From positions 1 through 64,000 of the forward strand of contig NZ_ACIS01000005.1 in the NCBI RefSeq assembly GCF_000174355.1: a stretch of DNA of 64,000 nt, given 5' to 3'. The notes below the pieces were generated by a model. It made no database searches. It had not been told where the DNA came from and saw nothing but the letters and a program-made list of their open reading frames with translations. The position numbers and the translations under genes were made by a program. This DNA comes from Pseudogulbenkiania ferrooxidans 2002 (lineage in GTDB: Bacteria > Pseudomonadota > Gammaproteobacteria > Burkholderiales > Chromobacteriaceae). Shown piece after piece: positions 1-26,988 of this stretch. The number at the start of each line of letters is the position of its first letter. Positions within the stretch are counted from its first letter, which is position 1.

Positions 1-641
1 CCGACGCTGCACCGCATGCTGCAGCAACTGGAAAGCGCCGGGATGCTGCAACGCGACGGCGACGGGCGGCACTACAGCACCGGGGTGCGGCTGCGGCGCA
101 TGGCCGAGAACCTGCTGCTCAACAACACCGTGCACGGCGCGCGCCACGCGGTGCTGCGCCAGCTGGTGGAAGAAGTGGGGGAAAGCTGCAACATCACCGC
201 GCTGTCGGGCAGCGAAGTGCTGTACCTGGACCGGGTGGAAACCCCGGCGCCGCTGCGCTTCTACCTGCACCCCGGCTCGCGGGTGCCGGCGCACTGCTCG
301 GCGAGCGGCAAGCTGTTTCTGGCACAGATGAGCCCGAGCCAGCGGCGCCGGCTGCTGGAACACGTGCCGCTGGAACGCTACACCGCGAAGACGCTGACCG
401 ACCTGGCGGCGCTGGAGCGGGAGATCGAGCGGGTGAAGCGGGACGGCTACGCCTGCGACGACGAGGAATTCCTGCCGGGGCTGTTCTGCCTGGCAGTGCT
501 GGTGCCGACGCCGGGGGGCAAGTCCAACACCGGGATAGCGATTCAGGCGCCGGTGCTGCGGGTGACGCCGGACAAGGCGCTGCAGCTGTTGCCGGCGTTG
601 CAGCGGGCGGCGGCGGCCCTGGCCAAGATCGAGGCCGAGGC
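1..641 (+). repeat. 641-bp exact direct repeat, copy 1
   Basis: Bases 1-641 match bases 10918-11558 at every position I compared line by line. Identity stops at base 642. The repeat probably extends to the left beyond the window. Identity at wobble positions points to recent duplication or gene conversion between two regulator genes. Confidence 0.95.
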
Positions 642-669
642 CATGCCCGAGGCACGGGAGGGCGAATGA
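1..669 (+). CDS. IclR-family transcriptional regulator, 5' end outside window
   Basis: The reading frame is open from base 1, which encodes P-T-L-H-R-M within the helix-turn-helix, so the start lies upstream of the window and the Met at 16 is internal. What remains is the end of the N-terminal winged helix and the whole C-terminal IclR effector-binding domain, ending in TGA at 667-669. The first 641 bases are identical, synonymous sites included, to bases 10918-11558 of the complete IclR gene downstream. Only the last residues differ (MPEAREGE here). IclR proteins are usually local regulators of catabolic operons. This copy lies 160 bp before the cobS-like gene and may control it; that is inference. 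Confidence 0.9.
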   Translation, partial: PTLHRMLQQLESAGMLQRDGDGRHYSTGVRLRRMAENLLLNNTVHGARHAVLRQLVEEVGESCNITALSGSEVLYLDRVETPAPLRFYLHPGSRVPAHCSASGKLFLAQMSPSQRRRLLEHVPLERYTAKTLTDLAALEREIERVKRDGYACDDEEFLPGLFCLAVLVPTPGGKSNTGIAIQAPVLRVTPDKALQLLPALQRAAAALAKIEAEAMPEAREGE

Positions 670-829: not shown

Positions 830-1810
830 GTGACAGACATCAACCAGATTCAGCCCGACCGCAAGGTCTCGGTGCGCGAGGTGTTCGGCATCGATTCCGA
901 CCTGAAAGTGCCCGCCTTCAGCGAGCGCGACGACCACGTGCCCGAGGTCGACGAGGCCTATCGTTTCAACCCGGACGTGACGCTGGCGATTCTCGCCGGC
1001 TTTACCCGCGACCGCCGCGTGATGGTGCAGGGGCTGCACGGTACCGGCAAGTCCACGCATATCGAGCAGGTTGCGGCGCGCCTCAACTGGCCGTGCGTGC
1101 GCGTCAACCTGGACGGCCACATCAGCCGCCTTGACCTGGTCGGGCGCGACACCATCGTGCTGCGCGACGGCCTGCAGGTGACCGAATTCCAGGAAGGCAT
1201 CGTGCCGTGGGCGCTGCAGCGCCCGGTGGCGCTGATCTTTGACGAGTATGATGCCGGCCGCCCCGACGTGATGTTCGTGATCCAGCGCATTCTCGAGCGC
1301 GACGGCAAGTTCACCCTGCTCGATCAGAGCCGGGTGATCCGGCCGCACCCGTATTTCCGCCTGTTCGCCACCTCCAACACGGTGGGGCTCGGCAACCTGT
1401 CCGGGCTGTACCACGGCACCCAGGTGCTGAACCACGCCCAGATCGACCGCTGGAACATCGTCGCCACGCTCAACTACCTGTCGCGCGAGGAAGAGATGGC
1501 TATCGTGCTGGCGCGCGTGCCAGCCAAGGACCACGAGCAAGGGCGCAAGCTGGTGGCGTCGATGGTGGCGGTGGCGGAGTTGACGCGAAAAGGCTTTGCC
1601 GCCGGCGACCTGTCGACGCTGATGTCGCCGCGTACCATCATCAGCTGGGCGGAAAACTGCGAAATTTTCCGCAACCCGGCACTGGCCTTCCGCCTGTCCT
1701 TCCTCAACAAGTGCGACGAGGCCGAGCGCCCCATCGTCGCCGAGTACTACCAGCGCTGTTTCGGCGTCGAACTGGACGAATCCTGGATGCTCACGGCGGG
1801 AGCGCAGTAA
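830..1810 (+). CDS. cobS: CobS-like AAA+ ATPase (cobaltochelatase small subunit family)
   Basis: This 326-residue protein closely follows aerobic cobaltochelatase CobS over its whole length. The N-terminal VREVFGID...VPAFSE block is followed by a Walker A motif GLHGTGKST at about 68-76, a Walker B region ending LIFDEYDAGRPD near 135-146, and the HPYFRLFATSNTVGLG segment. In the known enzyme, CobS and CobT form an ATP-driven ring that loads cobalt into hydrogenobyrinate diamide held by CobN. No cobN or other corrin-ring gene is in this window, so this may be an ATPase ring reused for another metal-dependent target (inference). The start is GTG at 830 with GGAGAG upstream. Its TAA stop overlaps the ATG of the next gene. 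Confidence 0.85.
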   Translation: MTDINQIQPDRKVSVREVFGIDSDLKVPAFSERDDHVPEVDEAYRFNPDVTLAILAGFTRDRRVMVQGLHGTGKSTHIEQVAARLNWPCVRVNLDGHISRLDLVGRDTIVLRDGLQVTEFQEGIVPWALQRPVALIFDEYDAGRPDVMFVIQRILERDGKFTLLDQSRVIRPHPYFRLFATSNTVGLGNLSGLYHGTQVLNHAQIDRWNIVATLNYLSREEEMAIVLARVPAKDHEQGRKLVASMVAVAELTRKGFAAGDLSTLMSPRTIISWAENCEIFRNPALAFRLSFLNKCDEAERPIVAEYYQRCFGVELDESWMLTAGAQ

Positions 1811-3537
1811 TGGCCAGCCAGCAGCAGAACGCCCAGCGGCAGCAGCAGGTCGAGGAGCTGTGCGCGGCGGCGCTCCGCGCGCTGACCGGCGATGCGGCGC
1901 TGCACTACCGCGGCGGCCGGCTGCATCGCGCGACGCGGGCGCTGCCGGTGCACGCGCCCCACCTGCGCGTCGACCCCGGCGCCGACGACTTCGTGGCCTG
2001 CCGGGCAGCGGCCGACGGCATGGCGCTGCGCCTACAGTATTCCGATGCCGCGCTGCACCGCAGCCTGTGCCCGGAGGAGCCGATCGATCGTCTGGTCTTC
2101 GAGCTGCTGGAACAGCTGCGTGTCGAGACCCTGGCGCCGACCGACATGCCGGGCATGGCCGGCAACCTGCGCCGGCGCTTCGAGGACTGGTCGCGCGCGT
2201 TTTATCGTTCCGGGCTGACCGAGGGTGAGGCCGGCATCCTGCTCTACACCGTGGCGCAGATGTGCTGGTCGCGCCTCAACGCGCTGCCGGTGCTGCACGA
2301 AACCGAGGATTACATCGAGAGCACCCGCTGGTCCCTGGTGTCGGCGCTGGGCAGCGCGCTGGCAGGCATCCGCCGCCAGCGCCACGACCAGGCCGCGTTC
2401 GCCCCGCACGCGCTGGAGATCGCCCGCATCGTCGGCGACAAGGTGCGCGCCAAGCGCGCTCAGCCGGGGGAGGGCGAGGCCGGCGAGGAGGCCGAGGGCG
2501 ACGCCCGTGCCGCTTTCGCGCTGCTGCTCGACTTTGACCAGGACGAGGGGGGCGACGGCATCGCCGCCGCCGTCAGTGGCGCCAGCAAGGTGTTTGTCGA
2601 GGCGGAGCAGGCCTACCGCGTCTATACCACCCGCTACGATGTCGAGCTGGCCGCCGGCGCGCAGGTGCGCAAGGCGCTGCTGGAGGAGTACCGCGAGCGC
2701 CTCGACCGGCGCGTCGCCGCCCAGGGCGTCAATGTTCCGCGTCTGGCGCGCCTGCTCGGGGCCGTGCTCGCCGAGCCGCGCCGCGACGGCTGGCGCTTCG
2801 GCGAGGAGGAAGGTCAGGTGGATGGCCGCCGCCTGTCCCAGCTGATCACCTCGCCGGGCGAGCGCCGCCTGTTCCGCCGCGAGCAGTTCAAGCCGGCGGC
2901 GGACTGCCAGGTGAGCGTGCTGGTGGATTGCTCGGGCTCGATGAAGACGCACGTCGAATCGGTGGCGACCCTGGTGGACATCCTGTTGCGCGCGCTCGAG
3001 ATGGCCGGCGTCAGCACCGAGCTGCTCGGTTTCACCACCGCCGCCTGGAATGGCGGCCGTCCCTACCGCGAGTGGATGAGCCGCGGGCGGCCACGCCATC
3101 CGGGGCGGCTCAACGAAGTTTGCCACCTGGTATTCAAGGACGCTGAGCGCAGCTGGCGGCGCGCGCGCCGTGACATCGCGGCGTTGCTCAAGGCCGACCT
3201 GTTCCGCGAGGGAATCGACGGCGAGGCGGTCGACTGGGCCTGCAACCGCCTGCTGGCGCGCAGCGCGCAGCGGCGCCTCCTGATCGTGATTTCCGACGGC
3301 AGTCCCGCCGACAGCGCCACCGGGCTCGCCAACGATGCCTTCTATCTCGACAACCATCTCAAGGACGTCGTCGCCCGGCGCGAACAGCAGGGGCAGGTGG
3401 AGATACTCGGCCTTGGCGTTGGCCTAGACCTGAGCCCGTTCTACCGTCGCTGCCTGGCGACTGACATGAGCCAGGCGCTCGACAACGCACTGTTCTTCGA
3501 GATCGTGCAGCTCATCGGCGGGCGACACCGGCGCTGA
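1810..3537 (+). CDS. cobT: CobT-like protein with C-terminal VWA domain
   Basis: The product is 575 residues. The start is ATG 1810, sharing one base with the upstream stop (TAATG), which suggests translational coupling. The N-terminal half resembles CobT. An acidic Gly/Glu-rich linker follows at about 215-245. The C-terminal third is a von Willebrand A domain whose MIDAS motif DCSGS lies near residue 373 and which has a downstream VISDGSP strand. CobT is the partner of CobS in the aerobic cobalt chelatase and in MoxR/VWA-type chaperone pairs. With CobS next to it but no CobN, the client is unknown. The CobS/CobT pairing is secure; involvement in B12 synthesis is not. Confidence 0.82.
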   Translation: MASQQQNAQRQQQVEELCAAALRALTGDAALHYRGGRLHRATRALPVHAPHLRVDPGADDFVACRAAADGMALRLQYSDAALHRSLCPEEPIDRLVFELLEQLRVETLAPTDMPGMAGNLRRRFEDWSRAFYRSGLTEGEAGILLYTVAQMCWSRLNALPVLHETEDYIESTRWSLVSALGSALAGIRRQRHDQAAFAPHALEIARIVGDKVRAKRAQPGEGEAGEEAEGDARAAFALLLDFDQDEGGDGIAAAVSGASKVFVEAEQAYRVYTTRYDVELAAGAQVRKALLEEYRERLDRRVAAQGVNVPRLARLLGAVLAEPRRDGWRFGEEEGQVDGRRLSQLITSPGERRLFRREQFKPAADCQVSVLVDCSGSMKTHVESVATLVDILLRALEMAGVSTELLGFTTAAWNGGRPYREWMSRGRPRHPGRLNEVCHLVFKDAERSWRRARRDIAALLKADLFREGIDGEAVDWACNRLLARSAQRRLLIVISDGSPADSATGLANDAFYLDNHLKDVVARREQQGQVEILGLGVGLDLSPFYRRCLATDMSQALDNALFFEIVQLIGGRHRR

Positions 3538-3578
3538 GTGGTCTTTCCCCGATTCTTCAACCTGACCAGACACTGACC

Positions 3579-3947
3579 ATGACTATCAAGGTAATCGATT
3601 TTGACAAGGACGCAGGCCAGCGCTCCGAGCAGCGCCTGGCGAATCTTCCCGACCGCGTGGTCGAGGGCGACCCGCATCATCAGACCGTGTTGCAGTTCGA
3701 GAGCGCGAACGGCGAGGTGATCGCCGGCACCTGGCGCAGCACTCCCGGCAAATGGCACGCGTTCACCGACCGCGACGAGTTCTGCTACATCATATCCGGG
3801 CACGTGCGCCTGATCGCGGCGGACGGCAGCGCCCAGGCGTTCAAGACCGGCGATGCGTTCCTGATCCCGAACGGCTTTCGCGGCTACTGGGAAGTGCTCG
3901 AGCCGACTACCAAACATTTCATGATCCGCCGTTATGCGGCGCAGTGA
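3579..3947 (+). CDS. Small cupin-domain protein
   Basis: This 122-residue single-domain protein has a cupin barrel core: GTWRSTPGKWHAF, then DEFCYIISGHVRL, then GDAFLIPNGFRGYWEV. The fold resembles the Cupin_3 type (ureidoglycine aminohydrolase-like). Candidate metal ligands are the His in KWHAF, the Glu in DEFCY and the His in SGHVR. No enzymatic activity can be assigned. It sits 41 bp after the cobT-like gene and 22 bp before the first Lin0512 gene, in the same direction, so it is probably in the same transcript. A metal-binding cupin beside a chelatase-like ATPase fits a metal-dependent pathway (inference). Confidence 0.8.
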   Translation: MTIKVIDFDKDAGQRSEQRLANLPDRVVEGDPHHQTVLQFESANGEVIAGTWRSTPGKWHAFTDRDEFCYIISGHVRLIAADGSAQAFKTGDAFLIPNGFRGYWEVLEPTTKHFMIRRYAAQ

Positions 3948-3969
3948 GCAGAAACGGAACAGGTGAACC

Positions 3970-4323
3970 ATGGCAAAAACCAGAATGGTGGTGGAGTTCG
4001 GCATGGGGACGTCAATCCGCAGCCGCAATTACACCGAGGCCGCGGCGCGCGCGATCCGCGATGCGCTGTGGCGCAATTCGCTGAACGTGGCCGAGTTTTT
4101 CGGCTTTCCCAAGACGGCGATGATCATCGACGTCGAGATCGGCATCCAGCGGCCGGAGGAGGTCGACTGCGAGGCGCTGGTCGGGCTGTTCCCCTACGGC
4201 ACGCCGTCGATCACCGTGGTGAGGGGCGGCCTGGACGTGCCCAAGCACGGCAGCGATGGCCTGAGCGTGATCGCTCACGCCGCGATCATCGTGTCCTTTG
4301 ATATGGAGCCGGCACATGGCTGA
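3970..4323 (+). CDS. Lin0512-family protein, first paralogue
   Basis: This 117-residue protein belongs to the small uncharacterised Lin0512 family by length, the N-terminal Gly-x-Gly segment, the YT-x-AA-x-RA-(I/V)-(R/Q)-DAL helix, and the GI-x-x-P-(E/D)-x-V-D strand. As I recall it, the family's conserved motif is GxGxDxHG. Here the corresponding stretch is GMGTSIRS, so the Asp, His and last Gly are missing. The next gene encodes a paralogue, and the two coding regions overlap by 8 bp, so a heteromer is plausible. Function unknown. It follows the cupin gene in the CobS/CobT cluster. Confidence 0.78.
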   Translation: MAKTRMVVEFGMGTSIRSRNYTEAAARAIRDALWRNSLNVAEFFGFPKTAMIIDVEIGIQRPEEVDCEALVGLFPYGTPSITVVRGGLDVPKHGSDGLSVIAHAAIIVSFDMEPAHG

Positions 4324-4684
4324 GAAGCGCATCATCCTGGAAATGGGGTCCGGTAACGACCTCTATGGCGGCGACTACACCAAGGCCGCCTGCCGCGCGG
4401 TGCAGGACGCGCTGCATCATTCGTCGATCATTCTGTTCCGCTCGCTGGGCTATGACCACCGCACCATGCGGGTGCAGGTCACCATCGGCGTGCAGGAGCC
4501 GGACCAGGTCGACACCGCCGCTGTCGCCGCCACCTTGCCGCGTGGACGGGCCGAGGTGACGGCGGTGTTCGGCGGCCTCAACGTGCATGACCCGGAGCAG
4601 GGCACCACCCATATCATCGCCACCGCTGCGGTGGAAGCGTTTCTGCCTGCCGACAACGACTGGCGTCTGAGCGAGCCGGCCTGA
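4316..4684 (+). CDS. Lin0512-family protein, second paralogue
   Basis: The product is 122 residues, starting at ATG 4316 inside the end of the upstream gene. It aligns with that gene along its length (DYTKAACRAVQDAL against NYTEAAARAIRDAL; IGVQEPDQVD against IGIQRPEEVD). The motif region reads GSGNDLYG, keeping the Asp and last Gly of the family motif GxGxDxHG but with Tyr in place of His. Different degeneration in the two copies suggests subunit specialisation. Function unknown. A strong hairpin follows the stop, making this the last gene of the CobS/CobT transcript. Confidence 0.78.
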   Translation: MAEKRIILEMGSGNDLYGGDYTKAACRAVQDALHHSSIILFRSLGYDHRTMRVQVTIGVQEPDQVDTAAVAATLPRGRAEVTAVFGGLNVHDPEQGTTHIIATAAVEAFLPADNDWRLSEPA

Positions 4685-4690
4685 ACAGTC

Positions 4691-4715
4691 GCCCGGTTGC
4701 CGTCGGCAACCGGGC
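4691..4715 (+). terminator. Terminator after the cobST-Lin0512 cluster
   Basis: A perfect 11-bp stem GCCCGGTTGCC/GGCAACCGGGC with a 3-base loop starts 7 bases after the stop of the second Lin0512 gene. The tail (TCACTTCCCC) is pyrimidine-rich but has no long U tract. Confidence 0.7.
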
Positions 4716-4808
4716 TCACTTCCCCTGCATGCCTGCTGCAAGACAGGGGGGCCGGATCACGAGCCTGACGTCAGGCTGCACCCGGCTCCCGGCCTCTTCG
4801 CGGCAACA

Positions 4809-4846
4809 CCCCCGTCGCCGGCTCTCGGCTATTACGGCGGCGGGGG
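4809..4846 (-). terminator. Terminator of the chemoreceptor gene
   Basis: An 11-bp GC-rich inverted repeat (CCCCCGTCGCC against GGCGGCGGGGG, one G-T wobble) lies directly after the minus-strand stop codon at 4848. Confidence 0.5.
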
Positions 4847-4847
4847 A

Positions 4848-6725
4848 TCAGACCTTGAAACGCTCCAGCAACGCATCCTGCTGCCCCACCTGCTCGACCA
4901 TCACCTGGCAGTGATCCAGCTGCGTCGCCGCCCCCTGTGCCACGGCGTGGCTGATGTCGCGGATGCCGTCGGTGCGCCGGCTCAGTTCGCGCGTGGCCAT
5001 GCTTTGCTCCTTGGCGACTTTGGCGATGTGCAGGTTCATGTCGTTGATGCGCGTGATCGCGTCACGGATGCGCCCCAGGATGTCGTTGGCGCTGGCGGCG
5101 TCGTCGACGGTCTGCTTGGCGGTGTGGCTGCATTGCAGCATGCTGCTCTCGGCGCGTTTCACGCCGTTTTGCAACTGCTCGATGATGTCGCGGATCTCGG
5201 CGGTCGAACTCTGGGTCAGCGAGGCGAGGGTGCGCACCTCGTCGGCGACCACGGCAAAGCCGCGTCCGGCCTCGCCCGCCCGTGCCGCCTCGATGGCCGC
5301 ATTGAGCGCCAGCAGATTGGTCTGGTCGGCGATGCCGGCGATCTTGGTCAGGATCGACTCGATGTGGCGGCTGAGCAGCACCAGCTGGTTGATGGAGAGT
5401 CCAGTCTCGCCCAGCTTGTCGGCCAGCAGCTGGATCGTGCTGGTGGTGCGCGATACCACCGCTACGCCGTGCTCGGTTTCAACGTTGGCGGTTTCGACGG
5501 CGCGGGCCGCCACCTCGGCGTGCTCCGCCACGGCCTCGGCGGCGCCGTTCATGTCGTTCATGGTATGGGCCAGTTGATCGAGCTCCTGCAGTTGCAGGTA
5601 CAGCCGCTCGGAGGCGGATTGCGCCTGACTGGAGGTGGCCGTGCTGGTCTGGCGCACCTGCGCGGCGCTGTTCATCACGTTGCCGATCAGGGTTTGCAGG
5701 TGCTGCACGAAGCCGTTGAATTCGGCCGAGAGCAGCGCGACTTCGTCCTTGCCCGTGGCCGGCAGGCGGCGCGTCAGGTCGCCCTCGCCACGGTTGATGT
5801 CCTGCAGGGCGTGATGCAGCCGCTGCAAGGGCGACAGCAGCCGTCCCATCAGGACGCCCAGCACCAGCAGGCTGAGCGCCACGCCAATGATCGCGCCCAC
5901 CAGCGCACGCTGGCTGGCGGCGTCGGCCTCGCGCATCAGCGCGGCTTCGTCGAGCACCACACCCAGGTACCAGTGCATGCCGTGCAGGCCGCTGAGCGGC
6001 ACGAAGGAGACCAGTTGCCGTCGCGCGCCGTTGACCGCGGTCAGTGCCGGCGTCAGTGCGGGGCGTTGTCCGTCGAACAGCCGGCTGTAGGGCTGGCCGT
6101 TCAGCTTGGCGTCGGGGTGCGAGATGATCTTGCCGTCCCCTGCCAATAGGAAGGCGTAGCCGGCGTCGTTGAAGTCGAGCGCGTTGACGGCGGCGGCGAT
6201 GCCTTGCAGGCTCAAGTCGCCGCCGAACGCCCCCATGAAGCGGCCATGGTCGCTGAGTTTCGCCACCGCGGAGATCAGGATCTCGCCGGTGGCGGCGTCG
6301 GCGTAGGGTTCGGTGAGCACCGCCCGCTGCGCCTGGCGTGCCACGGCATACCACGGCCGCTGGCGCGCGTCCCAGCCGGGCGGGTTCCATTTCGGGTCGT
6401 TGGTGAGGCGCTTTCCGTCGCTGTCCAAGCCGCCGAAGACCAGCAGGAACTGTTCTTTCAGCAAAGGTCGGTCGAAGACCTGCTGAATCTGCTCGGGGCG
6501 GAAGTCGGCGTCGATGCTCTGGGCCATCAGGTCGATCAGCTGCAGCTTGGCGTTGAGGCCGTTTTCAATCTGGCGCGCCAGCGCGTTGCCAGCCTGGGCG
6601 ATGCTGGATTCGGCCTGCGAACGCAGGCTGGTGCGCAGCTGGCTCACTTGCACCAGCGACAGCAGGCTGACGGTGAGAAACAGAACGGCGGCGCCAGCGA
6701 GGCCGGCCTTGTGTGAGATCTTCAT
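4848..6725 (-). CDS. Methyl-accepting chemotaxis protein with periplasmic dCache-type sensor
   Basis: This 625-residue chemoreceptor begins with a cytoplasmic tip and a first membrane helix (about 8-28). A periplasmic double-Cache type ligand-binding domain follows, with typical [14 protein letters not shown] and GGDLSL elements. A second membrane helix lies near 278-298, then HAMP ([14 protein letters not shown]) and a long signalling domain containing the conserved hairpin tip [21 protein letters not shown]. It would feed CheA/CheW. Being encoded between the CobS/CobT cluster and the sulfoacetaldehyde genes, it may sense a substrate of that region. Double-Cache domains commonly bind amino acids or amines, and taurine is a reasonable guess but untested. 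Confidence 0.9.
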
Positions 6726-7592: not shown

Positions 7593-8612
7593 CTAGCCCG
7601 CTGTGGCCGTCTCGCGGGCGGCGTGCGCCTGCACCACCGTCACCGCGATGACGTGGAACACGTCGTCGGCGCTGCAGCCGCGCGACAGGTCGTTGGCCGG
7701 TTTGGCCAGGCCTTGCAGCAGCGGCCCGATGGCCACCGCGCCGCCCACTCTTTCGGCCAACTTGTAGCCGATGTTGCCCGCTTCCAGATTGGGGAAGATC
7801 AGCACGTTGGCCTTGCCCTTGACCTGCGAGTCCGGCAGCTTGCGGTTGGCGATCTCCGCCACGATGGCCGCATCGAGCTGTACGTCGCCGTCGATGGCGA
7901 GCTCGGGGCGCTGCGCCTTGACCTGGGCGGCGGCCTGCGCCACCTTGTCCACCGCCGCATGCTTGGCGCTGCCGTTGGTGGAGAACGACAGCATGGCCAC
8001 GCGTGGCTCTTCCATCAGCAGCTGGCGCGCGCTGTCGGCTGCGGCCAAGGCGATGTCGGCCAGTTCGCTGGCGCTCGGGTCCACCACCAGGCCGCAATCG
8101 GAAAAAATCAGCCCGCCCTTGAGCGAGTGGAACGGCTCGCACAGCATCATCAGGAAAAAGCTGGAAACCAGCTTGAAGGAAGGCTGCACGCCAATGACCT
8201 GGATCGCGGTGCGAACTACGTCGGCGGTGGTGCGTACCGCGCCGGAGACCGTGCCGTCGGCCCGCCCGGTTTTCACCAGCAGGTTGGCGCAGACCAGCGG
8301 GTCGCGCGCGGCGCTGTCGGCCTGTTCGCGCGTCATGCCCTTGTGCTGGCGCAGCTCGAACAGAGTCTGTGCCAGCTCCGCCTGCAACGGGGCGTCGGCG
8401 GGGTCGTGAAAATCGATGCCGCTCAGGTCGAGACCGCGTTGTTGAGCCAGCGCCGCGATGGCGGCGCGGTCGCCGACCAGCACGATACGGGCGATGCCCT
8501 CGCGCGTGGCCCGTACCGCGGCATCGAGGACACGAGGGTCCTCACCTTCGGAAAGGGCGATCCGGGCGGGGGCGTGGCGGGCCTGCTCAATGATGCGGGT
8601 GAGTGCTCTCAT
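7593..8612 (-). CDS. pta: Phosphate acetyltransferase
   Basis: This 339-residue protein is the short, single-domain form of phosphate acetyl/butyryl transferase: N-terminal RIALSEGEDPRVLDAA, central GRADGTVSGAVRTTADVVR, and C-terminal GPLLQGLAKPANDLSRGC. It interconverts acetyl phosphate and acetyl-CoA. Beside xsc its role is to move the acetyl phosphate made from sulfoacetaldehyde into central metabolism. ATG 8612 is chosen because AGGAG precedes it at the right distance; a longer frame to 8699 lacks such a site. The 176-bp gap from xsc holds no gene. Confidence 0.93.
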   Translation of the reverse strand: MRALTRIIEQARHAPARIALSEGEDPRVLDAAVRATREGIARIVLVGDRAAIAALAQQRGLDLSGIDFHDPADAPLQAELAQTLFELRQHKGMTREQADSAARDPLVCANLLVKTGRADGTVSGAVRTTADVVRTAIQVIGVQPSFKLVSSFFLMMLCEPFHSLKGGLIFSDCGLVVDPSASELADIALAAADSARQLLMEEPRVAMLSFSTNGSAKHAAVDKVAQAAAQVKAQRPELAIDGDVQLDAAIVAEIANRKLPDSQVKGKANVLIFPNLEAGNIGYKLAERVGGAVAIGPLLQGLAKPANDLSRGCSADDVFHVIAVTVVQAHAARETATAG

Positions 8613-8788
8613 GGTGGGGACTCCTGATAAAACCATTCCCGGCAAGGGAAAAAAGGGCCGGAACCCAGGCGCGAGGGACGCCAGAGCCCCGGCTAACACT
8701 CAACATGGATTGAGTAGGAGGATGAAAGGGTCGAAGTCATTGCCATGGGAGGCGCCCCGGCGGTCAGACCAGAGCGCGTCCCGTTTGC

Positions 8789-10600
8789 TCATACATAATC
8801 CTTGTACTTATCGAGGAAGCGGACCGGCTTGGACAGCGCATCGCGACGGAACGGGTCACCCAGCTCGCGGGTGCACATGATCTCGATGATGCAGGTCTTG
8901 CCGTGGTTCATCTGCAGGTCGATGGCCTTCTTCAGGGCCGGGCCGACGTCCTCGAGGCGGTCCACGGTGATGCCTTCGGCGCCCATGGCGCGGGCGATCT
9001 CGGCGAAGCTCTGGTTGTCGAGTTCGCCGGCAACGAAGCGGCGGTTGTAGAAGTCGACCTGGTTCTTCTTCTCGGCACCCCACTGGCGGTTGTGGAACAC
9101 CACGGCGGTCACCGGGATGTTGTGACGCACGCAGGTCATCGTCTCCATCAGGCTCATGCCCCAGGCACCGTCACCGGCGTAGGACACCGCCGGGCGATGC
9201 GGTGCCGCCACCTTGGCGCCGATGATGGTCGGGAAGGCGTAGCCGCAATTGCCGAAACTCATCGCGGCGAAGAAACTGCGCGGCTTCTCGAAGCGCAGGT
9301 AACTGTTGGCCACCGAATTGATGTTGCCGATATCGGTCGATACCATCACATCCTCCGGCATCGCCTTCTCCAGCTCGCGCAACACCTGGCGCGGATGCAG
9401 GTAGTGGCCGCCGTTGAAGGTGCGCTCCTGGGCGTTCTGGTCGATCATGTCGAGGCTGAAGGCATCGCGCTCGTGCGTCCACTCGTCCAACTCCTTCTCC
9501 CAGGCCGCCTTCTCGGTGGCGATCTTGTCGCCCCGCTCGGCACGGGTCGCATCGCAGGCCAGGGTGCGGTTGGCCAGACGCTGCGTCAGCGCCACCGCCG
9601 CCGCCTTGGCATCGCCGCAAATGCCCACCGAAATCTTCTTCACCAGGCCCAGCATCTTGTTGTCGGCGTCGATCTGGATGATCTTCGCGTTCTTCGGCCA
9701 GTAATCCATGCCATGCTGCGGCAGCGTGCCGAACGGCCCCAGGCGCGACCCCAGCGCCACCACCACGTCGGCCTGCGCCATCAGCTTCATCGCCGCCTTC
9801 GAGCCCTGATAGCCCAGCGGACCGCACCACAGCGGATGGCTGGCCGGGAACGAATCGTTGTGCAGGTAGCTGTTCACCACCGGCGCCCCCAGGCGCTCCG
9901 CCAAGGCCTTACACTCCTCGACGGCATCGCCCATCACCACGCCGCCGCCGGAAATGATCACCGGAAACTTGGCCTGCGCCAGCAACTCCGCCGCCTCGTT
10001 CAGGCTCTGCTCGCCACCGGCACCGCGATCCAGACGCGCCGGCTGCGGAATCTCGGCGGTGATCTCGCCGTAGAAATAATCGCGCGGGATATTGAGCTGG
10101 GTCGGGCCCATCTCGCTCATGGCGCGGTCGAAGCAACGGCCGGTGTACTCGGCCATGCGGGCCGGGTGCGTGACATGTCCCTGGTACTTGGTGAATTCCT
10201 GGAACATCGGCAACTGGTTACACTCCTGGAATCCGCCCAGACCCATGGTCATGGTGCCGGTCTCCGGGGTCACGATCACCACCGGGCTGTGTGCCCAGTA
10301 CGCGGCGGCGATGGCGGTGACGCAGTTGCTGATGCCCGGGCCGTTCTGGCCGATCACCACGCCGTGGCGGCCGGACACGCGGGAAAAGCCATCCGCCATG
10401 TGGGCGGCGCCCTGCTCGTGGACCACCGGGATCAAACGGATGCCGGCGGGGGCGAAGATATCCATGGCATCCATGAAGGCCGACCCCATGATGCCGAACA
10501 TATCGGTCACGCCATTGGCCACCATGGTTTCGACGAAGGCTTCGGAAGGGGTCATCTTGGTGGGGCCGACGGGCACCGTACGGTTGGCTTGCTCGCTCAT
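8789..10600 (-). CDS. xsc: Sulfoacetaldehyde acetyltransferase
   Basis: This 603-residue thiamine-diphosphate enzyme has the N-terminal pyrimidine-binding domain (VVHEQGAAHMADGFSRVSG, with the activating Glu), a central domain, and a C-terminal diphosphate-binding domain (GDGAWGMSLMETMTCVRHNIPV). The GGFQECNQLPMFQEFTKYQ segment is typical of Xsc and distinguishes it from acetolactate synthase. It converts sulfoacetaldehyde plus phosphate into acetyl phosphate and sulfite, the key step in taurine, isethionate and sulfoacetate breakdown. The start at 10600 has AGGAG upstream. A candidate promoter is at 10671-10699. It diverges from an IclR regulator. The enzyme that makes sulfoacetaldehyde and the uptake genes are not in the window. 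Confidence 0.95.
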   Translation of the reverse strand: MSEQANRTVPVGPTKMTPSEAFVETMVANGVTDMFGIMGSAFMDAMDIFAPAGIRLIPVVHEQGAAHMADGFSRVSGRHGVVIGQNGPGISNCVTAIAAAYWAHSPVVIVTPETGTMTMGLGGFQECNQLPMFQEFTKYQGHVTHPARMAEYTGRCFDRAMSEMGPTQLNIPRDYFYGEITAEIPQPARLDRGAGGEQSLNEAAELLAQAKFPVIISGGGVVMGDAVEECKALAERLGAPVVNSYLHNDSFPASHPLWCGPLGYQGSKAAMKLMAQADVVVALGSRLGPFGTLPQHGMDYWPKNAKIIQIDADNKMLGLVKKISVGICGDAKAAAVALTQRLANRTLACDATRAERGDKIATEKAAWEKELDEWTHERDAFSLDMIDQNAQERTFNGGHYLHPRQVLRELEKAMPEDVMVSTDIGNINSVANSYLRFEKPRSFFAAMSFGNCGYAFPTIIGAKVAAPHRPAVSYAGDGAWGMSLMETMTCVRHNIPVTAVVFHNRQWGAEKKNQVDFYNRRFVAGELDNQSFAEIARAMGAEGITVDRLEDVGPALKKAIDLQMNHGKTCIIEIMCTRELGDPFRRDALSKPVRFLDKYKDYV

Positions 10601-10670
10601 GCTGACTAGTCTCCTGTGGGTATTATCTCAAAACCGGTACGAAAGATTCCGATATGTGAGACACGACTCA

Positions 10671-10699
10671 ACTCTAGGAGGCTGCTCGCGGCAAGTCAA
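10671..10699 (-). promoter_or_regulatory. Candidate sigma-70 promoter for xsc
   Basis: Read on the minus strand, TTGACT (10699-10694) and TAGAGT (10676-10671) are separated by exactly 17 bases and lie about 70 bp before the xsc start codon. The -35 match is good and the -10 match moderate, as expected for a promoter needing an activator. Confidence 0.5.
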
Positions 10700-10717
10700 C
10701 AAGAAATTACGTAAAAC

Positions 10718-10732
10718 GATACTTGTTGTATC
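10718..10732. promoter_or_regulatory. Candidate IclR operator palindrome between xsc and iclR
   Basis: The perfect inverted repeat GATAC-N5-GTATC spans 15 bp, the usual length of an IclR-family site. It lies about 20 bp upstream of the predicted xsc -35 box and overlaps the predicted -35 box of iclR (TTGTAT 10727-10732; TATGAT 10750-10755). That position would allow activation of xsc and repression of iclR by one protein. An 8-bp palindrome TTACGTAA lies next to it at 10707-10714. Confidence 0.45.
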
Positions 10733-10764
10733 AAAAACAGAAACTGAACTATGATGGAAACGCC

Positions 10765-11610
10765 ATGAACGACACAGCACAGACCCCGAAGAGCGAACCG
10801 GGCCGGCTCGACGGCGACACGCCGACGCTGCGGCTGTTCGCGCTGTTGGAAGTGATCGCCGAAAAGGACCAGTTCTTCAGCCTGCAAGGACTGGTGGAAG
10901 AAACCGGGCTGCCCAAGCCGACGCTGCACCGCATGCTGCAGCAACTGGAAAGCGCCGGGATGCTGCAACGCGACGGCGACGGGCGGCACTACAGCACCGG
11001 GGTGCGGCTGCGGCGCATGGCCGAGAACCTGCTGCTCAACAACACCGTGCACGGCGCGCGCCACGCGGTGCTGCGCCAGCTGGTGGAAGAAGTGGGGGAA
11101 AGCTGCAACATCACCGCGCTGTCGGGCAGCGAAGTGCTGTACCTGGACCGGGTGGAAACCCCGGCGCCGCTGCGCTTCTACCTGCACCCCGGCTCGCGGG
11201 TGCCGGCGCACTGCTCGGCGAGCGGCAAGCTGTTTCTGGCACAGATGAGCCCGAGCCAGCGGCGCCGGCTGCTGGAACACGTGCCGCTGGAACGCTACAC
11301 CGCGAAGACGCTGACCGACCTGGCGGCGCTGGAGCGGGAGATCGAGCGGGTGAAGCGGGACGGCTACGCCTGCGACGACGAGGAATTCCTGCCGGGGCTG
11401 TTCTGCCTGGCAGTGCTGGTGCCGACGCCGGGGGGCAAGTCCAACACCGGGATAGCGATTCAGGCGCCGGTGCTGCGGGTGACGCCGGACAAGGCGCTGC
11501 AGCTGTTGCCGGCGTTGCAGCGGGCGGCGGCGGCCCTGGCCAAGATCGAGGCCGAGGCGCAGGCCGGGGTCGGACGCGCGGAGGGGCCGGCACTGTCGGA
11601 CCCGGATTGA
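10765..11610 (+). CDS. IclR-family transcriptional regulator of the xsc region
   Basis: This 281-residue regulator has an N-terminal winged helix (about 20-85, including the recognition-helix region TGLPKPTLHRMLQQLE) and a C-terminal IclR effector domain with the FCLAVLVPTPGG strand. It diverges from xsc, the usual place for a pathway-specific regulator, so the ligand is probably sulfoacetaldehyde, a precursor sulfonate or a related metabolite (inference). ATG 10765 is chosen over an upstream TTG because GATGGAAA precedes it. Bases 10918-11558 duplicate the IclR gene at the window start exactly, after which the C-terminal tails differ. The gene ends 15 bp before dadA. Confidence 0.92.
   Translation: MNDTAQTPKSEPGRLDGDTPTLRLFALLEVIAEKDQFFSLQGLVEETGLPKPTLHRMLQQLESAGMLQRDGDGRHYSTGVRLRRMAENLLLNNTVHGARHAVLRQLVEEVGESCNITALSGSEVLYLDRVETPAPLRFYLHPGSRVPAHCSASGKLFLAQMSPSQRRRLLEHVPLERYTAKTLTDLAALEREIERVKRDGYACDDEEFLPGLFCLAVLVPTPGGKSNTGIAIQAPVLRVTPDKALQLLPALQRAAAALAKIEAEAQAGVGRAEGPALSDPD
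10918..11558 (+). repeat. 641-bp exact direct repeat, copy 2
   Basis: This is the partner of bases 1-641, offset by 10917 bases and in the same orientation. It lies wholly inside the complete IclR gene. Homologous recombination between the copies would delete or amplify the intervening 10.9 kb, which carries the CobS/CobT cluster, chemoreceptor and xsc-pta-tauE genes. Confidence 0.95.
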
Positions 11611-11625
11611 TATAAGGAGCGGGTC

Positions 11626-12870
11626 ATGAAAATTATCGTCCTGGGGGCCGGTGTCGTCGGGGTCACGTCCGCCTGGTACCTGTCCCGGCAGGGCCATGAC
11701 GTCACCGTGATCGAGCGCCAGCCCGAGCCGGCACTGGAAACCAGTTTTGCCAACGGCGGCCAGATATCGGTCTCGCACGCCGAACCATGGGCCAATCCCC
11801 ATGCCCCGCTGAAAGCGCTGCGCTGGCTGGGAAAAGAGGATGCGCCGCTGCTGTTCCGTTTGCGCGCCGACCCGGCCTTGCTGGGCTGGACGCTGCGCTT
11901 CCTGCGCGAGTGCCGTGCCGACCGCTACAAGCAGAATATGCGGCACGTCGTCGCGCTGGCGCTCTACAGTCGGCAATGCCTGAAACAGCTGGGCAGCGAG
12001 CTGGCCGGACTCCAGTACGACCGGCTGGAGCGGGGCATCCTGCACGTCTACACCGACCACGCCGAATACGCCAAAGGGATCCAGGCCGCCCGGCTGCTCG
12101 GCGAGTTCGGCTGCGAACGGCGCCCGGTCTCCGCCGAACAATGCCTCGAGCTCGAGCCAGCGCTGGCGCCCCTTGGCGAGCGGCTGGTCGGGGGCGATTT
12201 CGCCGCCGACGATGAGTCGGGCGACGCCCGCCAGTTTACTCGGCAACTGGCCGAGCACTGCCGGCGCGCCGGGGTGCAGTTTGCCTTCGGCCAACCTTTG
12301 GTTCGCCTCGAAGCGGAGCCGGGGAGGATCGCGGCGGCGGTGACCGCTGACGGGCAGCGCCACGTCGCCGACGCCTACGTCGTGGCGCTGGGGAGCTACG
12401 GCCCGGCGCTGCTGCGCCCGCTGGGCATTTCCCTGCCGGTTTACCCGGTCAAGGGCTACTCGGCCACCTTTGCCCTGTCGGAATCGAGTGTCGCCCCCAC
12501 GGTCAGCCTGATCGACGACGAATACAAGATCGTCTTCTCCCGGCTGGGAAACCGCCTGCGTGTGGCCGGTACCGCCGAGATCGCCGGTTTCAATCACGAC
12601 CCGAACCCCATCCGTTGTGACCTGCTGGTGCGCCGCACCCGGGAGCTGTTCCCGGAACTCAACGATCAGGGCGAACCCGAATTCTGGAGCGGCCTGCGCC
12701 CCGTCACGCCATCCGCGGTCCCCTTCATCGGCCGCTTGCGCTACCCCAACCTCTGGGTCAACACCGGTCACGGCACCCTGGGCTGGACTATGGCGTGCGG
12801 CTCGGCCGCCGCACTCAGCAGTCTCGTGGGCGGGCGGCAGCCGCCAGTCGATTTTCCGTTTATGGGGTGA
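11626..12870 (+). CDS. dadA: D-amino acid dehydrogenase, FAD-dependent
   Basis: This 414-residue protein matches DadA in length and sequence. It has an N-terminal Rossmann motif IIVLGAGVVGVTSAWYL (about 2-18) with the following acidic residue in VIERQPEPA, an ANGGQISVSHAEPWANP block, and a C-terminal GLRPVTPSAVPFIG...NTGHGTLGWTMACGSA FAD-binding segment. The family oxidises D-alanine and other D-amino acids to 2-oxo acids and passes electrons to the quinone pool at the membrane. The usual partner alanine racemase gene is absent. It follows iclR by 15 bp with a good ribosome binding site (AAGGAG), so it may be cotranscribed, perhaps to recycle alanine formed by taurine:pyruvate transamination (inference). 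Confidence 0.9.
   Translation: MKIIVLGAGVVGVTSAWYLSRQGHDVTVIERQPEPALETSFANGGQISVSHAEPWANPHAPLKALRWLGKEDAPLLFRLRADPALLGWTLRFLRECRADRYKQNMRHVVALALYSRQCLKQLGSELAGLQYDRLERGILHVYTDHAEYAKGIQAARLLGEFGCERRPVSAEQCLELEPALAPLGERLVGGDFAADDESGDARQFTRQLAEHCRRAGVQFAFGQPLVRLEAEPGRIAAAVTADGQRHVADAYVVALGSYGPALLRPLGISLPVYPVKGYSATFALSESSVAPTVSLIDDEYKIVFSRLGNRLRVAGTAEIAGFNHDPNPIRCDLLVRRTRELFPELNDQGEPEFWSGLRPVTPSAVPFIGRLRYPNLWVNTGHGTLGWTMACGSAAALSSLVGGRQPPVDFPFMG
12286..12297 (-). repeat. Uptake-signal-like 12-mer AGGTTGGCCGAA
   Basis: Exact copy inside dadA, encoding F-G-Q-P in that frame. It is the only exact copy in the first 17 kb. Confidence 0.8.
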
Positions 12871-12906
12871 GCGGGTGGCCCAGTGCAGGGCAAGGCCGTT
12901 CTCGGG

Positions 12907-13692
12907 CTAAAACCCGTAGCGGGCGAGAATGCGGTCGACTTCGCCTTCCTGCTGCAACGCCTGCAAGGTGGCATCGAGGCGCTTGATGAAATCGGCCTTG
13001 AACGACGGGGAGGCGCGGCGGCTGAAGCCCACGTAGGCTTCTTCCCCCGACAGTTCCGCCACCTCGTGCAGCGTGAGTGCATCCAGCTCCGGAAAGTGGG
13101 GGGTATCGTTCTTCATGCGCCTCAGCGTGTAACGGATCGACAGGCTGTCGTTGGCGTAGCAGCCGATACGGTTCAGAGCGAGCTTGCGCAGGTTTACTAT
13201 GTTGCCGTTCGCCTCGTCAATCCGCACCGTGTGGTTCTGACGGGCGGCCACCAGCACGCCGGAGAGGGCGAAGCCGGCGTTGACGCCGATGGTGACGTCG
13301 CCGAAGTCGCGCGGGAAGCGCTGGCGAGGCTTGCTCATGGTCCTGTCGTTGCACACCACCACCACGCGTTCGCGGTAGAGCGGGATCGAGTAGGCGTCGA
13401 TAAACGTACGCTCCGCCCGACGGTATGGCGGAAACAGCGCGAACGCCTCGCCGCTCTCCAGCATCGACAGTCCTCGCCGCCACGGCGTCGGCACCAGTTC
13501 CAGCTGGTAGCGCTCCGCCATCCTGCTGGCGGCCGCCTGCAGCAGCTCGACATAGACGCCTCTGAACTGGCCATCCTCGAGGTAGGCATACGGAGGGTAG
13601 GAGTCGTCCCCGTACAGCACCACCTTCTCGCCTGCATCGCAGGACAGTGCAACCAGAAGGGCCGCCAAGGCGGGGCAGGCGCAAGGCTTCAC
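12907..13692 (-). CDS. Periplasmic solute-binding protein, SBP_bac_3 type
   Basis: This 261-residue secreted protein has an N-terminal hydrophobic signal (CACPALAALLVALSC), then KVVLYGDDSYPPYAYLEDGQFRGVYVELLQAAASRM, the characteristic start of polar amino-acid type family 3 solute-binding proteins. The C-terminal VDRILARYGF is typical too. GTG 13692 is preferred because GGGAGG precedes it; the open frame to 13767 lacks a signal peptide. No permease or ATPase gene is adjacent, so it may serve a distant transporter or act as a sensor-like orphan. It converges on dadA with a 36-bp gap. Confidence 0.82.
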   Translation of the reverse strand: MKPCACPALAALLVALSCDAGEKVVLYGDDSYPPYAYLEDGQFRGVYVELLQAAASRMAERYQLELVPTPWRRGLSMLESGEAFALFPPYRRAERTFIDAYSIPLYRERVVVVCNDRTMSKPRQRFPRDFGDVTIGVNAGFALSGVLVAARQNHTVRIDEANGNIVNLRKLALNRIGCYANDSLSIRYTLRRMKNDTPHFPELDALTLHEVAELSGEEAYVGFSRRASPSFKADFIKRLDATLQALQQEGEVDRILARYGF

Positions 13693-13993
13693 GATGGTCC
13701 TCCCTGAACCGATTCGTTGACGCGTTGAGTATAGGTGCGGTGGTCCGTCACGGCCGGACAAGAGCAAGCCGGCAACCTGGCGGAAATCCGTCCCGGCGCC
13801 GGCGCTGCCCGTAATGGAGGTGGCCGGTCACGGCTATGCCAGTAGAAATGCCCGTCAATGGGGGATGTTTCTTCGGGCGGATGCGCGCAGGGCAGACCCG
13901 CCTGCCATTTCATGGGCATCGAAAACCGGATTGATGGCGGGAGTCCATCGTGGATAACGGGACGGTGGCGTCAGCGGTCATCCATTGCCCACC
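13693..13993. other. Gene-poor stretch
   Basis: About 300 bp between the solute-binding protein start and a small hypothetical gene. Short frames are present on both strands but none has a good ribosome binding site or recognisable product. No strong hairpin was found. Confidence 0.4.
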
Positions 13994-14203
13994 TTATAGC
14001 CGGGCCTTCGGAATCTTGAATACCCTCTCGACGGGGTATCCGGGGCGGTCGTAATGGATCACCGCCATTTTGTGATGTTCGCACTCGGTGGGGTCGTGCA
14101 GGTAGATGAACGCTTTTAACCCCCCATGTTTACCGCGCTGGACGGCCCAGGCGCGAATGAAATCATCACTGTCAAATACGGTCGGCAGGTTGTTTGCAGG
14201 CAT
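13994..14203 (-). CDS. Small hypothetical protein
   Basis: This 69-residue frame begins MPANNLPTVFDSDDFIRAW and contains mixed charged and aromatic residues, with a KIPKARL tail. There is no signal peptide, membrane helix or known motif. Amino-acid composition looks protein-like rather than the Arg/Ala/Pro-rich pattern of shadow frames here. No clear Shine-Dalgarno sequence precedes ATG 14203, which lowers confidence. It stands alone, between a solute-binding protein and a lipoprotein gene in the same orientation. Confidence 0.45.
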   Translation of the reverse strand: MPANNLPTVFDSDDFIRAWAVQRGKHGGLKAFIYLHDPTECEHHKMAVIHYDRPGYPVERVFKIPKARL

Positions 14204-14450
14204 GGTGGCATATCCACGGTCTTGTTGATTGTTTTTTAACTATAGGTAACAGCGATTGATACCGAATCGGCCGGGCTTGATGTAACTCAAACTCGCGACA
14301 ATTAGGTGGATTGCCGCTCGGCGGCCACCGCCCGGACAAGGGCGGTGTCGGCCGGCATACGTGATGTGGCAGGCGTACTGGCACAGGGCCATAGCGATGG
14401 GATGAGCCGGGATGAACTGGGCGGGCGGGGCCGGGCGGATGGCAGCACGG

Positions 14451-23842: not shown

Positions 23843-24277
23843 ATGAACAAGCAAAGCTATTTGGCCGCTGCCGAGCAGCATTGCCTGCACCGAGGCTGCA
23901 AGCTCACTGCCTTGCGCCGGCATATCCTCGAGCTGGTGCTCGAATATGATGGCGTGGTCAAGGCTTACCAGGTGTTGGCCGATCTGCAGCGCGAGCGCGG
24001 TGTGGCCGCGCCGCCAACCGTCTACCGGGCACTCGACTTTCTGGTCGAGCAGGGGTTATTGCATAAGGTGGATGCCTTGAACGGCTTCGTCGTATGCAGT
24101 CATTTCGAATGCAATCACCATGGTTTGATCCTGGTGTGCGAGCAATGCGGGCGGGTCGAGGAAATCGATGCCAGCCAGTTTTTGGGGGCGCTGAAGGAAG
24201 TGACCGAGGCGGTGGGTTTTGAAAGTCGTGAGCAGAACTTGCTGCTCACCGGGTTATGCAAGGCATGTCACGCATGA
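23843..24277 (+). CDS. zur: Zinc uptake regulator, Fur family
   Basis: This 144-residue Fur-family repressor has an N-terminal winged helix (LTALRRHILELVLEY...PTVYRALDFLVEQGLLHK) and a dimerisation domain with His/Cys metal ligands (CSHFECNHHGLILVCEQCGRVEEID; final CKACHA). The CxxC pairs form the structural zinc site. Zur, not Fur, is indicated by the downstream znuCBA and zinc GTPase genes and by the Zur box in its own promoter. ATG 23843 is used; GTG 23840 is an alternative. Its stop overlaps the next start (ATGA). Confidence 0.92.
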   Translation: MNKQSYLAAAEQHCLHRGCKLTALRRHILELVLEYDGVVKAYQVLADLQRERGVAAPPTVYRALDFLVEQGLLHKVDALNGFVVCSHFECNHHGLILVCEQCGRVEEIDASQFLGALKEVTEAVGFESREQNLLLTGLCKACHA

Positions 24278-25197
24278 AAAAAACGATTGTCAATCTGTTC
24301 ACGGGGTTTCTCGGGGTGGGCAAAACCACGGCTTTGCGCCATCTGATCGCCAACCGGCCGGCACATGAGCGCTGGGCTGTTATCGTCAATGAATTTGGCG
24401 AGGTCGGTATCGACGGCGCGGCTCTGAGCAGCGACGAACTGCCGGTGGCTGAAATCGCCGGTGGCTGCATGTGCTGCGTGGCCGGCCCGCAAATGACGGT
24501 CACCGTGGCCAACCTGCTGCGCCGCGAGCGGCCTGACCGGCTTCTGATCGAAGCCAGCGGGCTGGCCCATGCTGCGGGCGTGATCGACGAATTGCGCGAA
24601 CCGCCGCTGGGCGATGCGCTGACGCTGGGGGCGGTACTGACCGTGGTCGACCCACGCCAGTTCACCAATCCCGATTACTTCCGCCAGCCGCTTTATCGCG
24701 ACCAGGTATCGCTGGCCGACGTGTTAATCGCCAACAAGGTCGACCTGGCCGACGTCGACATGCTGGACGCCTTCCGGCGCCAAGCGGCCAGTCTGTTTCC
24801 GCCAAAATCGCTGGTGTCTGAGGTACGGCAGGGGGCGCTGGATCCGGCCTGGCTCGACCTCGCGGTGGTGCCCAAATCGCGTTATCGCCCGGCAGTGCCG
24901 TCCCAGACCGCCATGGACTGGCGCTCGCAGGGCTGGCTCTTCTCCCCGGATACGGATTTCAACGGCGAGGCGTTGACGGATTTCTTCGACACCCTGCCGC
25001 AACGCGTGCCGGGGCTGGTGCGTGCCAAGGGGGTATTCCGGGTGCTGGGTTCGTGGGTCTGGCTCAACTGGGCGGAAGGGCAGTGGGGGGCGAGCCAGGT
25101 TGCCTGGCGTCGTGACAGCCGCTTCGAATTGATCGCCCCCGAGTTGGATGCGGAAGAGATCGAGGCCGCCTTGCGCGCCTGTATCGAACAACAGTGA
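24274..25197 (+). CDS. COG0523 family G3E GTPase, putative zinc metallochaperone
   Basis: This 307-residue P-loop GTPase has Walker A GFLGVGKTT (about 11-19), the metal-binding motif GGCMCC (CxCC) near 66-71, an ASGLAHA switch region and the guanine-specificity motif NKVD. A C-terminal CobW_C domain follows. Members in Zur-controlled operons are thought to deliver zinc to essential enzymes under zinc limitation. It is coupled to zur by ATGA overlap. ATG 24274 is chosen for that coupling and its N-terminal MKKTIVNLFTGFLGVGKTT. Confidence 0.9.
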   Translation: MKKTIVNLFTGFLGVGKTTALRHLIANRPAHERWAVIVNEFGEVGIDGAALSSDELPVAEIAGGCMCCVAGPQMTVTVANLLRRERPDRLLIEASGLAHAAGVIDELREPPLGDALTLGAVLTVVDPRQFTNPDYFRQPLYRDQVSLADVLIANKVDLADVDMLDAFRRQAASLFPPKSLVSEVRQGALDPAWLDLAVVPKSRYRPAVPSQTAMDWRSQGWLFSPDTDFNGEALTDFFDTLPQRVPGLVRAKGVFRVLGSWVWLNWAEGQWGASQVAWRRDSRFELIAPELDAEEIEAALRACIEQQ

Positions 25198-25208
25198 ATG
25201 GCATCATC

Positions 25209-25364: not shown

Positions 25365-26103
<739 letters not shown>

Positions 26104-26104
<1 letters not shown>

Positions 26105-26979: not shown

Positions 26980-26988
26980 GGTAAAGAA

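Follow-up and report, generated by a model that had tools for sequence, protein, structure and literature searches.

In the window analysed here, the first 64 kb of contig C16 in the 4.2-Mb genome of Pseudogulbenkiania ferrooxidans 2002, adjoining genes encode a CobS-like MoxR-type AAA+ ATPase (830..1810, + strand) and a CobT-like protein with a VWA domain (1810..3537, +). We found that this pair is co-inherited with one clade of the sulfoacetaldehyde acetyltransferase Xsc (8789..10600, - strand, in the window) across beta- and gammaproteobacteria and actinomycetes. Xsc desulfonates sulfoacetaldehyde and is among the main enzymes by which taurine and other sulfonates are degraded aerobically, a pathway that is usually drawn without a maturation factor. 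The conserved link between the CobS/CobT-like motor, sometimes joined by the Lin0512 proteins A and B, and one Xsc clade is real, and the fact that the pair travels with Xsc suggests an activation step so far unrecognised in sulfonate breakdown. We give an even chance to the pair being a MoxR-AAA+/VWA remodelling motor that is dedicated to the sulfoacetaldehyde pathway, with Xsc as its most likely client.

Association of the pair with one type of Xsc

The window Xsc scores 1086.7 bits against TIGR03457 (cut-off 676.4). We searched 399 genomes of the order with the CobT-like protein and with this Xsc (E<=1e-180); the two samples of 399 were taken to be identical genomes from their equal tallies and handles. 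CobT-like matches occurred in 16 genomes, 12 of them at 406-1275 bits and four weaker ones at 64-240, and Xsc occurred in 49. All 12 genomes with a full-length, close CobT-like protein had Xsc, compared with 49/399 overall (Fisher p 3e-12), and in every one it was on the same contig, within about 6 kb in ten cases and about 21 and 28 kb away in G423 and G352. Identity to the window Xsc divides the Xsc genomes into two groups, one at 81-100% (14 genomes) and the other at 64-75% (35 genomes). The pair is present in 12/14 genomes whose Xsc is at least 81% identical and in 0/35 of those at 75% or below (p 1e-9). In G525, a genome with the other Xsc type, a 240-bit CobT lies on a separate contig (L106) and falls outside the CobT-like clade; 23 of the 35 other-type genomes were searched again with A1, a 17-row profile within which CobT-like identity drops to 39-64%, and yielded no CobT-like match. 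Two further genomes of the class with a 90% identical Xsc (G279 and G349) encode CobT-like proteins of 618 and 615 bits at a distance of about 1.3 kb from xsc, bringing the pair to 14 of the 16 genomes with the window Xsc type in the order and these two members of the class.

The phylogeny of Xsc is consistent with this distribution. After 142 hits had been reduced to 139 by length and 18 duplicate rows had been removed, a FastTree phylogeny of 121 rows (79 with the pair) required two changes of the pair label, compared with a mean of 35.1 when labels were shuffled; the simplest reading would be one gain and one loss. The 21 Xsc residues that distinguish the clade (e.g. N423, A519, G520 and E387) were considered as a docking site and rejected because 18 of them are also found, in every row, in the two genomes that have this Xsc type and lack the pair.

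We also compared the neighbourhoods of 98 CobT-like loci: the best 80 of 299 confirmed in a contig scan with A1, the window, the same-genus contig L047, five plasmid records and 11 genomes of the order. They include Azoarcus, Aromatoleum, Halomonas and relatives, Paraburkholderia, Caballeronia, Pandoraea, Variovorax, Oceanisphaera and Leucothrix, together with the actinomycetes Saccharopolyspora and Amycolatopsis, and 63 of them are wide, extending at least 8 kb either side of the CobT-like gene. Xsc was found in 72/98 loci and in 56/63 wide loci, making it the recurring enzyme that the preliminary description of this DNA had proposed to look for as a possible client. That description had placed the genes next to sulfonate catabolism, which is true; the proximity is not incidental, it is the main signal. 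An IclR-type regulator (58/63), Pta (51/63), a TauY-like oxidoreductase (42/63), TauE (25/63) and a GMC dehydrogenase (24/63) also recur in the wide loci, and among all 98 loci we counted the GMC dehydrogenase in 26, a SauT-like AMP-binding ligase in 13 and an aldehyde dehydrogenase in 11. The names TauX, TauY, IseJ and SauS/SauT are our presumptive labels, backed by context, the annotation of Caballeronia sp. NK8 and Pfam domains; NCBIfam gave the TauY-like proteins no such name. Other assignments did not stand: gene family F7 is a MocR-type regulator and not an aldehyde dehydrogenase, F13 is a YeiH-family exporter and not ThiO, and two small genes 5' of CobS in L092, which resembled a Lin0512 pair by size, belong to DUF202. 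In 13/72 loci no more than 400 bp separate Xsc from the pair, and the orientation of the two is convergent in 31, divergent in 37 and on the same strand in four. Seven wide loci lack Xsc. In L096 and L099 it lies farther out (in G423 and G352), L155, L177 and L195 have TauXY-like genes, and in L196 the set is sulfoacetate-like (AMP-binding ligase, aldehyde dehydrogenase, TctA, TctC and TauE); the seventh is L223, discussed below. The routes of entry thus vary, being taurine-, isethionate- or sulfoacetate-like, and the exit through Xsc is common to them, which makes Xsc the most likely client.

The motor might instead serve another enzyme of the same clusters, such as a TauXY-type taurine dehydrogenase, Pta or the sulfite exporter, with Xsc a mere fellow traveller. 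The frequencies of TauY-like and Pta genes in the wide loci favour such a client, as do the three loci in which TauXY-like genes occur with no Xsc in the stretch examined. Against it, a TauY-like gene is missing from 18 of the 56 wide loci that contain Xsc, both genomes with window-type Xsc but no pair do carry one (L140 and L141), and Pta falls into two distinct score groups whereas Xsc always belongs to one clade. We regard this alternative as unlikely, and Xsc as the better candidate.

The CobS-like/CobT-like motor and its locus

The CobS-like protein (326 amino acids, GTG start) was assigned from Pfam, NCBIfam and its motifs. Its score against TIGR01650, 543 bits, is narrowly below the curated cut-off of 558.55; it passes Pfam CobS_N (70.4, cut-off 22.2), aligns with the solved CobS 9ujv at 484 bits, and reaches 15.8 bits against CbbQ_C, below the cut-off of 20.6. 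The CobT-like protein (575 amino acids, ATG start) has a diverged N-terminal part followed by a C-terminal VWA domain with a metal ion-dependent adhesion site (MIDAS); it passes Pfam CobT and CobT_C and scores 293.3 bits against TIGR01651, far below the cut-off of 759.05. The earlier view that both proteins are well conserved is therefore right for CobS and wrong for CobT. When compared with four alphaproteobacterial CobT proteins, the N-terminal part of the CobT-like protein is 22% identical and the VWA part 40%, and an altered N-terminal part on a retained motor is what we might expect a switch of client to look like. The Walker A (GLHGTGKST) and Walker B (LIFDEYD) motifs of the window CobS-like protein have counterparts in 96/97 and, by the pattern that we used, 92/97 CobS-like proteins, respectively, and two of the five Walker B misses are in short, cut open reading frames (ORFs). 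The MIDAS motifs of the window CobT-like protein are DCSGSM, GFTT and SDG, and among the 98 loci D-x-SGSM and SDG are invariant and GF[ST]T is found in 95. Conservation of Walker A and D-x-SGSM means that the machine should be active. In a FastTree phylogeny with 31 CobT proteins of the true alphaproteobacterial kind and five others for contrast, the 101 CobT-like rows form a single clade with a local support of 99; the tool flagged long branches in this tree.

The preliminary description took CobN and the corrin genes to be missing. They are missing locally, but both are on the same contig about 165 kb from the pair, which rules out the absence of CobN from the genome: cobN occupies C16:169556-173248, an open frame of 1432 amino acids, and is surrounded by homologues of cobM, cobI, cbiD, cbiE, a CbiX/methylmutase fusion, cobD and cbiB. 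The corrin pathway is accompanied there by another chelatase motor, a fused ChlI-ChlD-type cobaltochelatase subunit that adjoins cobN (TIGR02442 826.6 bits, cut-off 779.45). Searches with the window proteins found no second copy of CobS or CobT in the genome, the one match being an AAA+ protein at 25.8 bits. Given that CobN has a fused ChlID-type partner and the pair is the sole copy found, the chelatase appears to have its own motor and the window pair to be an orphan. Judged from gene neighbourhood alone, CobN is not a partner that depends on the window motor, and none of the 98 CobT-like loci contains CobN (phmmer with the genome's own CobN, E<=1e-10). The suggestion that the ring serves a client other than CobN is thus probably correct.

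Five ORFs lie closely packed on the + strand, as had been described: the CobT-like start overlaps the CobS-like stop (TAATG), an EutQ-like cupin (PF05899; 3579..3947) follows, and the genes for the Lin0512 paralogues A (3970..4323) and B (4316..4684, ATG start) overlap by eight bases. The strong hairpin described at the end of this cluster (4691..4715, +) is real and GC-rich, an 86-nt stretch of the region folding at -49.6 kcal/mol (z -4.0). It lacks a T tract, however, the terminator scan does not report it, and we do not regard it as a canonical terminator. Beyond it lie a dCache chemoreceptor gene (4848-6725), a TauE/SafE-type exporter gene (PF01925; 6766..7596, -) whose product probably exports sulfite, pta for phosphate acetyltransferase (7593..8699, -; TIGR00651 355.9 bits, cut-off 311.2) and xsc, from which a second IclR-family regulator gene diverges (10723..11610, +; 408 bits to the IclR profile that we built). 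The first IclR-family gene (1..669, +; Pfam and NCBIfam) is truncated because the window begins at the start of the contig. The chemoreceptor, possibly a sulfonate sensor, is also present in L047. Contig C1 of G000 (L144), which is 5 kb long, carries at 3495-4973 another copy of xsc that is 99% identical to the first, contains one in-frame TGA and continues up to the contig end; its neighbours are a permease-family gene and a YeiH-family exporter gene. A CobW-type GTPase gene with ABC-3 and ZnuA genes at 24256-27879 in the window forms an unrelated cluster that resembles a zinc-uptake system.

Pairs of the CobS/CobT type also occur in other settings. On the Pandoraea oxalativorans plasmid pPO70-1 (L261, 4861-7698) genes for CobS and a CobT-like protein that is 31% identical to the window's lie directly 3' of ureG among urease genes; this pair too looks like an orphan, here beside a nickel enzyme. 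The pair in L106 (G525, 7680-14320) adjoins the alpha and beta subunits of 4-hydroxybenzoyl-CoA reductase (TIGR03194 1336.8 bits), so that in this third setting the neighbour is a molybdenum enzyme. Distant CobT/VWA matches were seen on plasmids of Acinetobacter (145 records), Klebsiella (30) and Aeromonas (11), and are called 'hypothetical protein' where annotated.

The cupin and Lin0512 proteins

Conservation of the five-gene neighbourhood extends to four of its members. CobS, CobT, Lin0512 A and Lin0512 B recur together in 16/98 loci, with the A-B pair after the CobT-like gene: these are the window, L047, Azoarcus, Aromatoleum, Halomonas relatives, Oceanisphaera and a betaproteobacterial metagenome-assembled genome. 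The cupin has no homologue in the related loci L047-L233 (phmmer E<=1e-3), including the same-genus contig; having been seen in this genome alone, it is probably outside the conserved module, and a five-gene module that includes it is rejected. Nor are the Lin0512 proteins obligatory, given the 16 loci in which they occur; G182, G293 and G352 have the CobS/CobT-like pair without a match to Lin0512, and the 26 genomes that do have such a match do not include G423.

Both Lin0512 proteins pass Pfam PF09585 (A at 112.9 bits and B at 117.1, cut-off 23.4), while TIGR02058 narrowly accepts B (57.6, cut-off 56.85) and not A (49.7). They resemble the known family in sequence and predicted fold, and the family's solved structure, 3c8l, is titled 'of unknown function'; what differs here is their arrangement as A and B paralogues in tandem after the CobT-like gene, seen in 16/16 loci that have them. 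The model of Lin0512 B (mean predicted local distance difference test score 86.9) matches 3c8l with Z 16.4 and a root mean square deviation of 1.9 over 112 residues. It also resembles FtsZ C-terminal domains with Z up to 7.8, a middling match by VIA-align that shows no function, and weak matches to designed SAKe proteins in the PDB disappeared when a profile search was used.

In the Lin0512 tree A and B form separate clades. Within each, proteins from sulfonate clusters are close kin of those from family f88, which we guess to be Rhodobacteraceae-like, in a tree of few columns and many unresolved forks. The Lin0512 pair is near CobN in 7/12 f88 loci (L052 also has CobO and a CobB/CobQ), and A1 matched a single CobT of the true kind in each of the 19 f88 genomes to which it was applied (311-336 bits where a score is listed), whether or not Lin0512 is present. 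An association with Xsc is seen here too. Across the phylum (398 genomes searched for Lin0512 and 396 for Xsc) 14 of the 15 genomes with a full A/B pair have Xsc (p 7e-18, uncorrected for kinship; a second, partial Lin0512 match in G297 was not counted as a pair). With one f88 genome per genus, Xsc is found in 22/26 with Lin0512 compared with 35/74 without (p 0.001), which is suggestive of a Lin0512-Xsc partnership in f88 and is possibly an effect of genome size. We read these data to mean that Lin0512 A/B accompanies CobS/CobT-type motors and Xsc and is dispensable. In family f81, which we guess to be Bradyrhizobium-like, six loci (L066-L069, L073 and L074) have single Lin0512 genes near an acetolactate-synthase-type enzyme that uses thiamine pyrophosphate (TPP); it scored 826 and 819 bits against PRK08322 in L066 and L073, the two tested.

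The occurrence of Lin0512 A/B with true CobS/CobT and CobN in f88 means that these proteins may go with the motor rather than with its client. The pair and Lin0512 A/B might then mature or repair a cofactor or metal centre used in these clusters, their target being a small molecule or an enzyme whose gene lies elsewhere, and the neighbourhood would show no client. Co-inheritance with one Xsc clade fits poorly with a target of that kind, and we think this quite improbable. That the pair is the ordinary CobS/CobT of the genome's CobN, inserting cobalt and placed beside xsc by chance, is very improbable indeed: the near-cut-off CobS score, the existence of CobN and the f88 loci with Lin0512 near CobN speak for it, but CobN adjoins its own ChlID-type motor and is in none of the CobT-like loci, the CobT-like clade is separate, and the link to Xsc is far beyond chance.

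A possible activase for Xsc and its place among MoxR/VWA machines

The preliminary description spoke of an uncharacterised metal-insertion or enzyme-activation module. An activation module with a different client is the best reading, metal insertion would be conjecture, and the cupin is left outside. With Xsc as client, we can picture the CobS-like protein as an ATP-driven ring and the diverged N-terminal part and VWA MIDAS of the CobT-like protein as docking on Xsc, broadly as CbbQO works on Rubisco and NorQD on nitric oxide reductase. Hydrolysis of ATP would open the active site of Xsc, allowing Mg-TPP to be loaded or a dead cofactor or inhibitor to be expelled, and Lin0512 A/B would assist the motor as an optional adaptor or a cofactor-handling partner. 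Sulfite cleaves thiamine, and our specific guess is that the expelled cofactor would be TPP damaged by the sulfite that Xsc makes in its own active site. A full 'Xsc activase', in which the AAA+/VWA machine expels the sulfite-ruined cofactor and reloads Mg-TPP with Lin0512 A/B as its cofactor-handling partner, is a speculative proposal that we consider unlikely.

We infer both Xsc as the client and Mg-TPP as the cargo, the latter because Xsc is a TPP enzyme by its Pfam domains, because thiG occurs in 8/98 loci (L155 of Azoarcus, L156, L157 and L174 of Aromatoleum, and L097, L098, L208 and L219) and because thiG also appears in actinobacterial taurine regulons, as described in PMC5320631. In L098 thiG is preceded by ThiO- and ThiS-like genes, both below their cut-offs, and thiG was found in none of nine comparison loci with other Xsc types.

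Several observations weigh against assigning Xsc as the client. One wide locus in 63, L223, has no sulfonate gene among those tested. IclR is as frequent in the wide loci as Xsc, and Pta nearly so, and therefore co-inheritance of a gene cluster is no proof of contact. The 98 loci were picked by CobT similarity, which partly accounts for the 80-100% identity to the window Xsc of all 75 long Xsc proteins from CobT-like loci; they are also taxonomically uneven, and both the window and its relative of the same genus are counted among them. Two genomes, G579 and G747, carry window-type Xsc without the pair, and because these and the other Xsc clades do without it the pair is not strictly required. 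Finally, cleavage of thiamine by sulfite should spoil mainly the pyrimidine side, and with thiG at 8% of loci this makes thiG loose support only.

The pair invites comparison with three known machines. It shares with the CobNST cobaltochelatase (TIGR01650, TIGR01651; PDB 9ujv, 9uka and 21vu) tandem AAA+ and VWA subunits with Walker and MIDAS motifs, and the window CobS shares 67-71% identity with CobS-like proteins from beyond its own clade (L107 and L106); the window locus differs in having no CobN, a CobT-like protein in a clade of its own, and linkage to xsc and pta rather than to cob genes. The Rubisco activase CbbQO is a two-part MoxR AAA+/VWA machine of the same type, which frees Rubisco from inhibited states by removing inhibitors (PMC4660213 and PMC8718961); its AAA+ subunit is of another subfamily, and the client of the window pair would be a TPP enzyme. 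NorQD, the chaperone of nitric oxide reductase, is likewise a MoxR/VWA pair, with a different client that receives non-haem iron; its VWA MIDAS is required for the client and dispensable for ring binding, according to PMC9976466.

The enzymes, exporters and regulators of Xsc/Pta sulfonate catabolism in the window are as known from PMC5320631. Its taurine section names neither the motor pair nor the Lin0512 pair among regulon members, the words cobS, cobT, chelatase and ATPase are absent from its main text, and 'chelatase' and 'AAA' are absent from the text of PMC6829993. The open-licence papers listed by our searches yielded no description of a CobS/CobT-like motor with Xsc (an older subscription paper is possible), nothing on orphan CobS/CobT pairs as MoxR/VWA machines, nothing under the name lin0512 and nothing on taurine dehydrogenase together with cobaltochelatase. 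We found the window pair to be tied to a TPP enzyme of sulfonate breakdown, and to our knowledge no such AAA+/VWA machine has been described for a TPP enzyme.

If the pair does act on Xsc, one entire Xsc clade has an ATP-driven helper, pathway annotations and work with heterologous Xsc lack a component, and labels of the cobalt-chelatase kind, as in Caballeronia sp. NK8, are wrong. Such a function would give the MoxR/VWA machines a new kind of client and the unstudied Lin0512 family a place in metabolism that can be tested.

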